DNA from: an uncultured Bacteroidales bacterium
Lineage (GTDB): Bacteria > Bacteroidota > Bacteroidia > Bacteroidales > Bacteroidaceae
DNA: 55,576 bases
NCBI GenBank assembly: GCA_902788275.1
Contig: CADAJV010000012.1
Coordinates: forward strand, 1-55,576
Reading direction: 5' to 3'
Position numbers and translations under genes: made by a program. The notes below the pieces were generated by a model that saw nothing but the letters and a program-made list of their open reading frames with translations, did not search any database and was not told where the DNA came from. Shown here in pieces: positions 11,234-16,113 of this stretch (its first letter is position 1; every line of letters starts with the position of its first letter).

Positions 11234-12205
11234 GTGGACAAACTTTCAATTATACGCCAGCCGATAGAGGCCGAGCTGAAGCGATTTGCCCAGCTCTTTG
11301 ATGAAACTATGAATGAGGCTGACGGCCTGCTGGGCCGCATATGCCAGGGTATAGCCGAGCGCAAGGGCAAGCTTATGCGCCCCATTCTCCTGATGCTTGT
11401 GGCCAAGGAGTGGGGTGAAGTCAGCATGGCTGCCTACCGCGCCGCCCTCACCCTGGAGTTGCTGCACAATGCCTCGCTCGTCCATGACGACATAGTCGAT
11501 GAGAGCGACATGCGCCGCGGCCGCCCATCTGTGCGCTCCATCTATGGCAACAAGACCGCTGTGCTCGCCGGCGACTATCTGCTCTCCTCCGCCCTCGACA
11601 GTGCAGCGCTCAGCGGCGACATCAAGATAGTCAACAATGTCTCCCTGCTCGGCAAGCAGCTCAGCGAGGGCGAGCTCCTGCAGCTCTTCAATACGCAAAA
11701 TACCGATTTCAGCGAGGAGAAATACTACCATATCATCCGCCTCAAGACAGCCTCGCTCTTCTCTGCTGCCACGCGCATCGGTGCCATCTCCTCCGGTGCC
11801 GGCGACGATGACGTGAAGCAGATGGACCGCCTTGGCGACATCATCGGACTCTGCTTCCAGATACGCGATGATATCTTCGACTACTACGACAACGATACCG
11901 GCAAACCCTCCGGCAACGACATGCTTGAGGGTAAGCTAACCCTGCCGGTCCTCTATGTGCTCAACACCACCAACGATGAGGCCCTCCGCGCCATCGCCAC
12001 GCGTGTGCGTGCCGGCTCCGCTACGGCCGATGAGATAGCTATCCTTGTAAGCGCCACCAAGGAGCAGGGCGGCATCCGCTACGCCAACGACCAGATGGAG
12101 CGTCTTTCCCTCGAGGCTAAGGCCCTCATCTCCAACTTCCGCAACCCCGAGGTCAAGCAGGCCCTCAGCCTCTACATCGACTTCGTGAGCGAGCGCACCA
12201 ACTGA
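11234..12205 (+). CDS. Trans-polyprenyl diphosphate synthase (octaprenyl/nonaprenyl type)
   Basis: This is a class I all-trans prenyltransferase that extends farnesyl or geranylgeranyl diphosphate with isopentenyl diphosphate to make the long side chain of menaquinone. Both aspartate-rich motifs that bind Mg-diphosphate are visible: HDDIVDESDMRRGRPSV (first DDxxD region, about residues 82-98) and QIRDDIFDYYDN (second). The 323-residue length fits the IspB/HepT group. The start is GTG at 11234, preceded by a -7 box. A rho-independent terminator closes the unit. The product chain length cannot be read from sequence, so no symbol is given. Confidence 0.9.
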   Translation: MDKLSIIRQPIEAELKRFAQLFDETMNEADGLLGRICQGIAERKGKLMRPILLMLVAKEWGEVSMAAYRAALTLELLHNASLVHDDIVDESDMRRGRPSVRSIYGNKTAVLAGDYLLSSALDSAALSGDIKIVNNVSLLGKQLSEGELLQLFNTQNTDFSEEKYYHIIRLKTASLFSAATRIGAISSGAGDDDVKQMDRLGDIIGLCFQIRDDIFDYYDNDTGKPSGNDMLEGKLTLPVLYVLNTTNDEALRAIATRVRAGSATADEIAILVSATKEQGGIRYANDQMERLSLEAKALISNFRNPEVKQALSLYIDFVSERTN

Positions 12206-12255
12206 CGGCGCCCCGGCAAGAATAGACAGTCTATCCCTACATTTATATATTATAA

Positions 12256-12297
12256 CGTGCATCCCCAAGACAGAATTCTTCGGATGCACGCTTTTTG
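12256..12297 (+). terminator. Rho-independent terminator after the polyprenyl synthase gene
   Basis: CGTGCATCC (12256-12264) pairs with GGATGCACG (12282-12290) and is followed by CTTTTTGT. It separates the core gene from the accessory islet that starts just beyond. Confidence 0.85.
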
Positions 12298-12351
12298 TAC
12301 CGATAATTTGAAATAAAGGTGCAGAATATAGTGCCTTTCAGAAGAAATTGT

Positions 12352-12359
12352 TATTTTTG
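12352..12359 (+). promoter_or_regulatory. Possible -7 element driving the islet leader RNA
   Basis: TATTTTTG matches the Bacteroidetes -7 box and would place the start site at the foot of the first leader hairpin, around 12364. No TTTG box is seen at the expected distance, so support is partial. Confidence 0.4.
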
Positions 12360-12363
12360 CCGT

Positions 12364-12645
12364 GAGTTGCTGTGCTCTTAGCGAAGAGACGCAACTCTTT
12401 AATGGAATATTAACAAGCGTTTGCTGTTATTCGGAACATCTTAGAATCTACCACATTCAAAAGACACAAAATCCGAAAGAATAAGTTTGCAAACGTCTGT
12501 GCGTTTTGCATAGGCGTGACTTATCTGGATTTTGTAGGCTTGTGGTAGAGCCTTAAGGTGTAGATGAAAGATCGTCTATGCTTCTTTTGTGCTCTTCACT
12601 TGCCTGCGTTCCTCCGAAGATAAGCGACGCACAAAAGCATAGCGC
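12364..12645 (+). ncRNA. Structured leader RNA ahead of the methyltransferase (three hairpins)
   Basis: There is no open frame here, but three strong stem-loops lie in series. Hairpin 1: GAGTTGC (12364-12370) with GCAACTC (12391-12397), and CTCTT with AAGAG inside it. Hairpin 2 spans 12440-12557 as one long interrupted stem: CTACCACA (12448-12455)/TGTGGTAG (12541-12548), ACAAAATCC (12466-12474)/GGATTTTGT (12527-12535), ATAAGT (12481-12486)/ACTTAT (12519-12524), and TGCAAA/TTTGCA at the tip. Hairpin 3: CTATGC plus TTTTGTGC (12576-12592) with GCACAAAA plus GCATAG (12629-12642), ending three bases before the ATG. It could be a cis-acting regulator or a separate small RNA; it matches no RNA family I can name. 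Confidence 0.6.
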
Positions 12646-13758
12646 ATGGCAAACACAAACTTAGCAAATGCAAAGACGGCAAAGAACGATGAGTTTTATA
12701 CGCAATATCAAGATATTCAGAAGGAGATAAACGCCTATCTGGAATATGACCCGAATGTGTTTCGTGGCAAGACGGTGCTGTTGCCTTGCGACGACCCAGA
12801 GTGGAGTAACTTCACCAAGTTCTTCGCTCAGAACTTTGAAGCCTTTGGATTAAAAAAGCTGATTAGTACGAGTTATGCCGTTGACTCAAAACGGATAAAG
12901 GACTGGCAACCGACACTGTTTGAAACAGAAAGTCCTTATTACGATGCGGACAAGAGCCGTACACATGGAAAGATATTCGTTTTAGATAAAGACATTAACG
13001 GAGATGGGCGTTTCAATATCAACGACTTGCAATGGTCGTATCTTGAAGGTGACGGTGATTTTCGCAGTGAAGAAGTAAAAGCACTGCGAGACGAAGCGGA
13101 TATTATCATTACTAATCCGCCATTCTCACTATTTAGGGAGTTTATGGCATGGATTATGGAAGCAGGAAAGCAATTTATCATTATTGGAAATCAAAATGCT
13201 GTGTCATACAAGGAGATATTTCCTTTAATAAAAAACAATAAGGTTTGGTTCGGGGTTGGTTTTAAGGGTGGAGCAACACATTTTATCAGCAATTATCAAG
13301 ACATAGCAACTGCTGGAAATCATATAGAGGGAATGATAAGAGTATCAGGGGTAGTTTGGTACACAAATATAGACCATGGTCGCCGCCACGAATACCTGCC
13401 TTTGATGACAATGGAGGATAATATTATGTACTCTAAGCATAAGGAAATAAGAGGAAAGGGATATATCCATTATGAAAACTATGATGCGATAGATGTCCCT
13501 TATACAGATGCAATTCCTGCTGATTATGAGGGGATGATGGGGGTTCCAAGAACCTTTCTTGATAAGTATTGTCCGGAACAGTTTGAGATTATTGGTAATG
13601 CGGAAGGAGATGCAGGCAAAGAGCTTGGTTTTAAGCCTTATCCACGTGAATTAAGGAAACTGAACAAAAGTCTTAGAGATGGACAACCTTATTATTTTGA
13701 TGAAAATGGTGTTCCGCAAAAACCTTTTGGTAGAATTATAATCCGCAAAAAACAATAG
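12646..13758 (+). CDS. EcoRI-family adenine-specific DNA methyltransferase
   Basis: The 370-residue protein resembles the M.EcoRI family of N6-adenine methyltransferases. The catalytic motif NPPF is at residues 157-160, preceded by ADIIIT as in the DPPY/NPPF group. An N-terminal [10 protein letters not shown] (15-24) is typical of this family, and LLPCDDP (45-51) is the likely S-adenosylmethionine motif. It starts three bases after hairpin 3 of the leader, so its ribosome-binding region is paired in that fold. The stop is followed after two bases by the DUF262-HNH gene, so the two are translated together. Base composition is more AT-rich than the flanking genes, suggesting acquisition. The recognition sequence is unknown, and no classical EcoRI endonuclease is present. 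Confidence 0.87.
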
Positions 13759-13760
13759 CG

Positions 13761-14936
13761 ATGCAAACGACATTACTAACCGACCTTACGGTCAAAGAGA
13801 TTTGTGAGGGCTTTGTTTACAATCAGTTGGAAGGCAAAGGCCTGTTTGGGTGGTCTGGCAAACTGACTATCCAGCCGGAGTATCAGCGTAATTACCTCTA
13901 TGCAGAAAACGAAGGCAAGAAGGAAATGGCTGTCATAGATAGTATGCTGAAAGGTTATCCTATTGGTCTCATATATTTCAACGAACCCGAAGATGGCAAA
14001 TATGAGATACTTGACGGACAACAGCGCATAACAAGTATAGGACGATTCGTTACGGGCAAGTTTGCTATCAAGGACAAGTTCGGAATGGAGCAATACTTTA
14101 CTGGCCTAACCAAAGAGGAACAAGAAAAGATAAACTCCTATAGATTGCTTGTCTATGTTTGCAATGGCACAGAAAAGGACATCAAAGAATGGTTTGAAAC
14201 AATCAACATTGCTGGTGTGCCATTGAACAAGCAGGAACTTCTCAATGCCACGTATAGCGGCCCATTTGTGACGGAAGCTAAGAAAGTATATAGCAACTCT
14301 CGTAGTCCGCAATTGCAGAAGTGGGGCTGCTACATCAAAGGCAATGCCAACCGTCAAGACATTCTTCATGCGGCACTTGCATGGGTGGCAAAAGGAGAAG
14401 AAAACGTTGGCGGCTACATGAGCCAGCATCGTTACGAAAATAGTATTGAGGAATTGCAGACCTATTTTGACACTGTAATAGAATGGGCTAAAACGTTGTT
14501 CGGCGAGACAAAAGATGAAATGAGAGGTTTGGAATGGGGAGCCTTTTACGAGAAGTACCATTCCAATTCTTACAACCCAGCCAAATTACAACAGCGAGTA
14601 AATGAACTATATGCTGACGAATATGTAACAAACAAGCGCGGTATCTTTGAGTATGTGCTCGGTGGAGAAATAGAGCAGAGTCTGCTAAATATCCGCATCT
14701 TTGAGGATAGCGTGAAGAAAACAGTGTATGCCCGTCAGACGAATGAGGCCAAAGAGCAAGGAGTTAGCAATTGCCCAGAGTGCGCCAAAGGACATGAGAA
14801 TGTTCGCACCAAGATTTACAAGTTCAACGAAATGGATGCCGACCATGTGACTGCATGGAGCAAGGGTGGCAGCACGGATATTGAGAACTGCCAGATGCTG
14901 TGCAAGACTCATAACAGAGCGAAAGGAAATAGATAA
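13761..14936 (+). CDS. DUF262 (GmrS-like) and HNH nuclease fusion protein
   Basis: This 391-residue protein has an N-terminal DUF262 domain: [10 protein letters not shown] at 38-47 and the signature DGQQR at 85-89, which in GmrSD/BrxU-type enzymes forms a nucleotide-hydrolysing ParB/sulfiredoxin-like site. The C-terminus is a classical HNH nuclease: zinc cysteines C338 and C341, the D361-H362 pair, N376, and the C377..C381..H384 finish. Starting two bases after an adenine methyltransferase, it is the natural candidate for the restriction half of a modification-linked system. Alternatively it may cut modified DNA, as type IV enzymes do. The pairing is visible in sequence; the defence role is inferred. 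Confidence 0.82.
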
Positions 14937-15693: not shown

Positions 15694-16113
15694 GCGTGGG
15701 CGTTGCTTTTATTTGCGAGGGGAGCAGAAATAACTGCGAGGAAAGCTGGCGTAATCGCGTGAAAGCATGGTTTTGTAGCGCGGAGCCGTAAGATAAACGC
15801 GAGCTCATGGCAAAATTCCTAAAGAATTTTCAAACGTTTCTAAGGAATTTTTAAAGATTACTTAGAAATAAATAAAAACTCCTTAGGAATTATGAAAAAT
15901 TCCTTAAGAATTATTTCAAATTCCTTAAGAATTTTTGAAAATTTCTAAAGAATTTTCGCGGGAGCTCGCGATAAGATTACGGCACCTCGCGATATAAGCA
16001 CGGGAGGACGCGATTAAAATGTGGGAGGACGCGATTAAAATGTGGGAGCACGCGATTAAAATGTGGGAGCACGCGATGAAATGGCGGCTGCACGGCTTTA
16101 CGGATGCAGAGCT
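15694..16113. repeat. 420-bp non-coding region with unbroken 21-bp periodicity
   Basis: The sequence divides into 20 consecutive 21-bp units without insertion or deletion. The start of each unit carries a repeated landmark: GCG(A/T)GG at 15694-15799, TTAAGAATT/TAAGGAATT at 15820-15945, and CGCGAT at 15967-16072, where three units (16009-16071) are nearly identical with core CGCGATTAAAATGTGGGAG. Unit content shifts from GC-type to AT-type and back while the phase is kept. Twenty-one bases is two DNA turns or seven codons. The region lies between converging genes; a 92-codon minus-strand frame covers only part of it and stops inside the AT-rich units. Confidence 0.8.

Follow-up and report, generated by a model that had tools for sequence, protein, structure and literature searches.

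Riboswitches and transcription attenuators that work with an intrinsic terminator consist of a large folded 5′ leader, in which strands are exchanged, followed by a terminator hairpin, a U-run and then the gene. Preservation of structure while arm sequences vary and modules are exchanged is also a feature of the integron attC sites, which are bound by the integrase as folded single-stranded DNA. The cis-regulatory and Bacteroidota motifs of Rfam include the D12-methyl RNA. Further Bacteroidota motifs are named in PMC2864571, these being Bacteroidales-1, Bacteroides-1, Flavo-1 and Bacteroid-trp. With respect to restriction-modification (R-M) systems, control by antisense RNAs is described for EcoRI and Eco29kI (PMC3874152), and there is also control by C proteins. 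The main text of PMC3874152 contains neither 'riboswitch' nor 'attenuation', and that of an R-M review (PMC12707154) contains none of 'riboswitch', 'attenuat' and 'leader'.

The leader described here was found in a window of 55,576 nucleotides, this being the whole stretch of DNA analysed, from an uncultured Bacteroidales bacterium. It is one copy of a structured RNA family of approximately 280 nt which has no match in Rfam 15. Like riboswitches and attenuators, the leader has a large fold, a probable pseudoknot, a predicted exchange of strands and a terminator-like hairpin with a U-run, followed by a gene. However, it differs from riboswitches in that the genes behind it (R-M, defence and surface) do not belong to one metabolic pathway, and membership of that class would need a ligand. 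Unlike in attenuators, the strand predicted to undo its arm lies downstream of the U-run, and its stems look to be exchanged as modules. With the attC sites it has in common the preserved structure, varying arms and modular exchange, but it differs from these in its RNA-strand asymmetry, promoter match and spacing to an ATG. Antisense and C-protein control share with it the matter of balance between modification and restriction, with RNA being involved in the case of EcoRI; the leader, however, is a sense RNA in cis and is common to different R-M types. The Rfam motifs of Bacteroidota come from the same phylum, are structured and in some cases lie in leaders, but the leader has no counterpart among them in Rfam 15.

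This agrees with a sequence-only reading of the window, which had matched the leader to no known RNA family. A scan of the window gave no Rfam match at gathering scores, while a search of positions 12250-12700 with E-values up to 10 gave four weak matches, the best of which (E-value 0.19) was to a nematode snoRNA on the other strand. With 16 further loci, Rfam 15 likewise yielded nothing for the leader; the matches there were to a tRNA and, next to the leader, to the DUF805 RNA at two sites. In locus L116, two DUF805 RNA motifs (RF03081; 1705-1770 and 2669-2737) lie downstream of a leader copy that comes from another family. The negative scan of the window extends to T-box leaders, which are marked by a specifier loop and a tRNA-pairing antiterminator bulge. 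The published literature that was searched does not describe the element; the thousands of candidates in PMC8040213 may include a fragment of it.

The leader locus and its family

The leader occupies positions 12364-12645 of the window, a non-coding stretch bounded by a prenyl-synthase-like ORF, which ends at 12205, and the ATG at 12646 of a gene for an EcoRI-type adenine DNA methyltransferase (12646-13758; PF13651, E-value 4.7e-124). Behind this gene lies that of a GmrSD_N (DUF262) and HNH protein (13761-14936; PF03235, E-value 8.6e-23; PF01844, E-value 1e-8), the probable partner nuclease; these genes and all elements of the leader given below are on the forward strand. The match TATTTTTG (12352-12359) to the Bacteroidota −7 box TAnnTTTG would place the 5′ end of the RNA near 12364. 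Directly upstream of this promoter match, the segment GTGCATCC...GGATGCACGCTTTTT (12250-12294) is by eye likely to be the terminator of the prenyl-synthase gene. Elsewhere in the window, an intergenic stretch (15811-15974) holds a 21-nt repeat six times, with inner dyad symmetry (AAATTCCTNAAGAATT type).

The predicted fold of 12364-12660, which includes 15 coding bases, has an energy of −101.3 kcal/mol, whereas 200 dinucleotide-shuffled versions come to −72.6 (sd 4.75), which gives a z of −6.0. A non-coding leader of about 280 bases that begins with a hairpin, as the sequence-only reading had proposed, is borne out by this result. The hairpin in question, P0 (GAGTTGC...GCAACTC; 12364-12397 in the predicted fold), can be recognized by eye in many relatives, where its sequence differs, and is absent in some, examples being L048, L070 and L079. 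A DNA search of the same genome identified a second copy of the 5′ part in front of another methyltransferase-like gene, with 77% identity in the P0 part, and a covariance model found nine copies in this genome at an E-value of 0.01. The window's genus has 12 places with the leader in 7 of 19 genomes, and one copy of this genus (L004) is identical to L188 over the compared stretch.

Wider searches were made with two covariance models, the E-values of which are rough. R1 was built from six copies, three lying before EcoRI-type methyltransferases and three before LRR genes, and R2 from 74 copies. Matches to R1 were found in at least 152 of 399 genomes (21 of 30 genera) in a family sample and at least nine of 395 in a phylum sample, and matches to R2 in at least 141 of 393 genomes (87 of 207 genera) in an order sample and at least 39 of 375 (17 of 166 genera) in a phylum sample; these counts are lower bounds because five or six candidates per genome were scored and stricter filters applied. 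The number of copies ranged from 1 to 31 in each of 30 chosen positive genomes at an E-value of 1e-4. An 18-base pattern from the region of helices H2 and P1 occurs in at least 120 genome stretches, and alignments A6 and A7 came from this pattern; R2 confirms 108 of the 120 stretches listed (75 of 80 and 33 of 40). Two of the 80 listed matches are non-Bacteroidota by name, but R2 confirms neither, and both whole genomes were empty when searched. Outside the phylum, model matches were obtained in none of five cases, comprising two genomes and three records. A set of 41 loci found by R1 or R2 includes seven from outside the order. The leader sequences collected amount to 206 distinct ones, and the loci examined were the best-scoring ones as opposed to a random sample.

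A number of single observations may be added. Copies in G804, G866, G933, G1050, and G1116 lie approximately 200-600 nt from contig ends, as if assemblies break nearby. In L008 (G016:C49), from about position 1690, the 5′ half of the leader is present and CCGAAATCTAATCGCG-type repeats take the place of the 3′ half. L069 (G252:C129), a broken or chimeric copy, retains the 5′ arms intact, but its 3′ part is rearranged and no ORF was identified downstream. The idea of a phage element was dropped; one IMG/VR stretch carries the 18-base pattern but is unconfirmed by R2, in a thin test made up of one viral scan.

Conserved helices and predicted alternative pairing

Compensatory changes across homologues indicate that the leader is a structured RNA and not a collection of chance hairpins. 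The long interrupted stem of the sequence-only reading is present, but by covariation its length is 124 nt (12437-12560) and not 118, and it is made up of five stacked helices. These are S1 (12437-12443 with 12554-12560), S2 (12447-12454 with 12542-12549), S3 (12466-12474 with 12527-12535), S4 (12481-12485 with 12520-12524), and S5 (12494-12503 with 12507-12516). The 5′ arm of S2 is flanked by a mini-pair of GAA (12444-12446) and UUC (12456-12458), and covariation covers S2 and the outer flank pair 12444-12458; these flanks suggest a kissing-loop geometry. On the other side of the stem, GGC, the S2 3′ strand, GCC and the S1 3′ strand follow one another (12537-12560) and have two possible partners.

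Ahead of the stem lie the hairpin H2 (AGC-GUUU-GCU, 12416-12425) and the P1 5′ strand (UUAUUCGGA, 12427-12435), which pairs with the P1 3′ strand (UCCGAAGAUAA, 12613-12623) just upstream of the start codon, with covariation at 12433-12615, 12429-12621, 12434-12614, and others. The loop of H2 (12419-12422) can pair with 12491-12494 at the base of S5. This pseudoknot is probable: one of the three alignments, A5, has covariation at 12419-12494 and 12422-12491, while in A6 and A7 these positions are 0.97-1.00 paired but vary on one side only. A micro-ORF (ATG GAA TAT TAA) before H2, noted by eye in a few copies, was rejected, its start codon not being kept in others. Behind the stem are the hairpin S6 (12561-12565 with 12574-12578, extendable with 12558-12560), a U-rich run (12582-12588) that together with S6 is terminator-like, and a strand termed ALT (12589-12604, exact ends by eye), complementary to the S2 and S1 3′ strands in the duplex and fold tests given below.

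In alignment A6 (74 distinct sequences), 47 of 64 pairs are changed on both sides, compared to 30.6 in shuffles, with none of 500 as high, and 94.8% of cells are paired as against 33-44% when the partners are slid. Alignment A7 (32 distinct sequences) has two-sided changes at 37 of 64 pairs and 95.6% of cells paired. Both alignments were fitted to the model and therefore lean towards it; nevertheless, sliding or shuffling gives values that lie far from theirs. All eight modelled pairs of each of S1, S2, and S3 are two-sided in A6, along with nine of ten in S5 and five of five in S6, the figures being weaker for P1 (5/8), S4 (1/5), H2 (1/3), and the pseudoknot (0/3). When column pairs were scored blind in A5, whose 74 aligned copies are biased towards those before EcoRI-type methyltransferase and LRR genes on which R1 was built, the top 22 belonged to S1, S2, S3, and P1. 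S5, S6, S4, the H2-loop pseudoknot and the flanks of the S2 arm scored lower, mixed with some non-pairing column pairs. The covariation check on homologues that accompanied the sequence-only reading has in this way returned many compensatory changes for S1, S2, S3, S5, S6, and P1 and few for S4 and H2. The pair cells of 183 members comprise 8316 Watson-Crick, 854 G-U, 71 A-C, and 401 other combinations, and the excess of G-U over A-C points to the transcribed strand as the strand under selection.

The terminator-like site of the window spans 12556-12583. Of 183 members, 174 have five or more U residues among the ten positions that follow S6, which may also suit the companion small RNA that the sequence-only reading had thought plausible; in 38 of these 183 members, the longest U-run in the first 13 positions reaches only 0-3 nt. 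Extension of S6 by the S1 3′ strand has a mean of 4.2 pairs with a member's own strand compared to 2.3 with swapped strands (151 members). At the level of sequence, the leader thus has what characterizes an attenuator, namely a terminator hairpin and U-run competing with an upstream helix, with the qualification that 27 of the 151 show no stem extension. It also has what characterizes a cis-regulatory leader, this being a gene on the same strand at a fixed short distance and a promoter match upstream. In the 130 nt preceding the core, 148 of 201 members have TAnnTTTG and 53 lack it, compared to a match in 3 of 187 control windows inside genes, and an ATG lies 15 to 24 nt past the model end in 113 of 196; no downstream ORF of 60 aa was found in 10 of 206.

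Among 170 members folded only as far as the U-run, 165 were predicted to hold the S2 3′ strand in upstream pairing and none in downstream pairing. When the same RNAs were prolonged past the end of the model in the direction of the gene, upstream pairing of this strand was predicted in 19 and downstream pairing in 142, the latter being absent in 28 of the 170. With foreign 3′ parts it was predicted in only 25, 25, and 34 of 169-170 members and with a shuffled 3′ part in 3 of 170. For the copy in the window, eight upstream pairs of the S2 3′ strand give way to seven downstream ones. The predicted duplex of the S2/S1 3′ strands with the strand after S6 averages −15.73 kcal/mol for own and −10.28 for swapped partners (sd 0.16; 140 members). 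A second exchange, of the S5 3′ strand with the S6 3′ strand, gives −14.82 and −11.87 respectively (sd 0.15; 163 members), so that the S2/S1 and S5 3′ strands each have a second partner and several helices would exchange strands with the U-run region. According to these predictions, the two-state design of the leader is conserved and centres on a terminator-like hairpin, and the covariation together with the two-state folding of the 170 members supports the earlier suggestion of a switch-like leader. As the ALT strand comes after the U-run, it cannot have a part in deciding on termination, and its role may lie in translation or stability.

The same reading held that a third hairpin conceals the start of the methyltransferase gene. 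Such a hairpin is indeed present in the window, where the U-run strand and the strand before the ATG (by eye approximately 12577-12592 with 12629-12642) pair at a predicted −16.6 kcal/mol, but hiding of the start is not conserved. In 113 relatives this pairing has −7.96 kcal/mol with the own strand and −7.92 with swapped strands (sd 0.18), and the third hairpin therefore looks private to the window copy. A small hairpin before the ATG exceeds 95% of shuffles in only 35 of the 113.

Genes behind the leader and similarity of cores

Of the 206 unique members, 196 have a downstream ORF and 176 of these were kept, having a length of 68 aa or more and a start no further than 60 nt from where the model ends. 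The controls were 110 ORFs out of the 140 lying nearest upstream; many of them are shorter and some possibly spurious. Genes were named by eye, except for those of the window and the downstream and control sets scanned with Pfam. A DNA-methyltransferase catalytic motif is found in 97 of the 176 downstream proteins (45 BLAST clusters) and in none of the 110 control ORFs. Pfam families in 111 of the 176 include EcoRI_methylase (26), N6_Mtase (20), MmeI (14), Eco57I (13), HSDR_N (8), C5 DNA_methylase (6), N6_N4 (4), and D12 (3), some of them on the same proteins, while none of these methyltransferase and R-M families is among the 25 commonest of 119 Pfam families in the control set. With PADLOC, mad2 and Type I/II methyltransferases are the commonest assignments behind the leader, where 111 of the 176 proteins were scanned, and among the control ORFs the commonest are PDC-S02 models (up to 7 of 110), which indicates that the control neighbourhood also holds some defence genes.

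The proposal that the leader is special to modification genes is not supported, since by eye it also precedes genes for LRR/BspA-type, lipoprotein, acyltransferase, SusC-type, and membrane-protein-like products as well as PLD/helicase, WYL, and other secreted proteins. Among 25 loci from a related pair of small genomes, which carry 13 and 19 copies, the genes seen most often by eye encode LRR, secreted and membrane proteins. An ORF of 80 aa is in place in 11 of 15 loci from far within the phylum, several being secreted or SusC-like, and in four there is none. The leader copies of L098, L105, L106, and L154 lie before a protein of 70-83 aa that is HTH-like (MEQIHIGSIIRCELRKQNRSNRWLA...) and recurs in Bacteroidales. 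Conversely, the leader was not found in five tested of 36 plasmid and phage records similar to the methyltransferase of the window (best score 11.2 bits, E-value 0.37). These five include a Phocaeicola plasmid and Flavobacterium phage laban6-1 (L294), both with a methyltransferase/HNH pair, which in the phage is an EcoRI-type methyltransferase with DUF262/HNH protein as in the window. The leader is thus optional for EcoRI-type methyltransferases, even within the phylum and its phages.

Comparison of loci gives cores that look to have been exchanged. L048 and L054 have identities of 99% in the protein, 99% upstream and 98% downstream of the core, but 76% in the core itself, and for L150 and L230 the protein is 100%, upstream 96%, downstream 92%, and core 71% identical. 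Across six chosen sister pairs, the 144 base-pair positions of S1-S3 include 57 with two-sided and four with one-sided differences, the remainder being the same (62), unpaired in one member (5) or with gaps (16); in S4-S5 of the same pairs, two-sided differences occur at 3 of 90 positions. The converse is seen with L203 and L247 (core 99%, upstream 70%, downstream 72%) and L067 and L071 (97, 64, and 63%). Cores are also similar where the first genes look unrelated, as with L004 and L020 (core 92%, upstream 61%, downstream 61%) and L023 and L151 (92, 71, and 60%). The truncated loci L209, L221, and L222, which have low flank identities, were excluded from this argument. Point mutation does not easily give such patterns, and recombination of the core as a module would be the simplest account.

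Proposed mechanism and alternatives

We consider that the leader, one of a large Bacteroidota family, is probably a regulatory RNA that acts in cis and whose two folds compete, much as in attenuators and riboswitches. Transcription would start just downstream of the TAnnTTTG match. An RNA that ends at the U-run would fold into H2, the stacked arm S1-S5, the probable pseudoknot between the H2 loop and the base of S5, and S6, whereas in an RNA that continues beyond it the S2 and S1 3′ strands would prefer ALT downstream and the arm would be dismantled. The arm would accordingly form first and be undone by read-through. It may sense a small molecule, a protein or an RNA, and this could decide whether the polymerase stops at S6 and the U-run, the full stem borrowing the S1 3′ strand, or reads through. 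Going further, a common signal might in this way switch mobile R-M genes, other defence genes and surface genes.

A serious rival, though a fairly unlikely one in our estimate, is a switch that acts on translation as opposed to termination, with P1 closing approximately 25-35 nt from the start codon, a hairpin before the ATG that may form, and the U-run as a linker. The P1 3′ strand covaries and its distance to the ATG is almost constant, the ALT strand does not arise until the U-run has been passed, and the pre-ATG hairpin is above 95% of shuffles in the 35 members mentioned; yet S6 and the U-run are themselves kept, pairing before the ATG is not widely kept, and P1 is compatible with both states. 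The promoter match, the terminator-like end and the presence of up to 31 copies in a genome would also suit a leader that mainly gives rise to a small RNA of its own, approximately 220 nt long, which ends at S6 and acts elsewhere, the gene being reached by read-through. This is unlikely, given that a same-strand ATG follows at an almost fixed spacing, that the choice of downstream gene type is strong and that pairing is kept between the 5′ part and strands past the U-run (P1 and ALT).

Function at the level of DNA, for example as a folded single-stranded recombination site of the attC type that spreads genes, would account for cores that seem swapped between loci, for stems that vary while the structure stays and for several copies near contig ends. 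Against it stand the twelvefold excess of G-U over A-C (854 to 71), which points to the RNA strand, as well as the promoter match, the ATG spacing and the conservation of the alternative fold, and we regard it as very improbable. Just as little probability is given to a leader specific to methyltransferases that hides their start, the form in which the element was originally read. Methyltransferases are common behind the leader in relatives of the window and the third hairpin is strong in the window itself, but other gene types stand behind the leader elsewhere, this hairpin is not conserved, and five of five tested among the 36 plasmid and phage methyltransferase records lack the leader.

The family may represent a new phylum-wide class of RNA switch in which the sensing core is a module that is freely exchanged. 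One conserved scaffold with interchangeable S1-S3 stems would have been recombined in front of surface-protein genes, many types of R-M system and further phage defences, and immunity and surface repertoire would thereby answer a common intracellular signal such as infection; we put this forward as a possibility that is somewhat doubtful. The leader also poses a new problem of RNA structure, with a probable pseudoknot, possible kissing loops and two mutually exclusive predicted folds, for which 206 distinct sequences are at hand, and it offers a case of regulatory RNA cores seemingly traded between genes. Bacteroidota are a dominant phylum of the gut, and to our knowledge the switching of their R-M systems and other mobile defence genes is largely an open question. 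The occurrence of one RNA scaffold before EcoRI-type, N6_Mtase/HsdM, N6_N4, MmeI/Eco57I, D12, and C5 methyltransferases as well as surface proteins would make that question testable.
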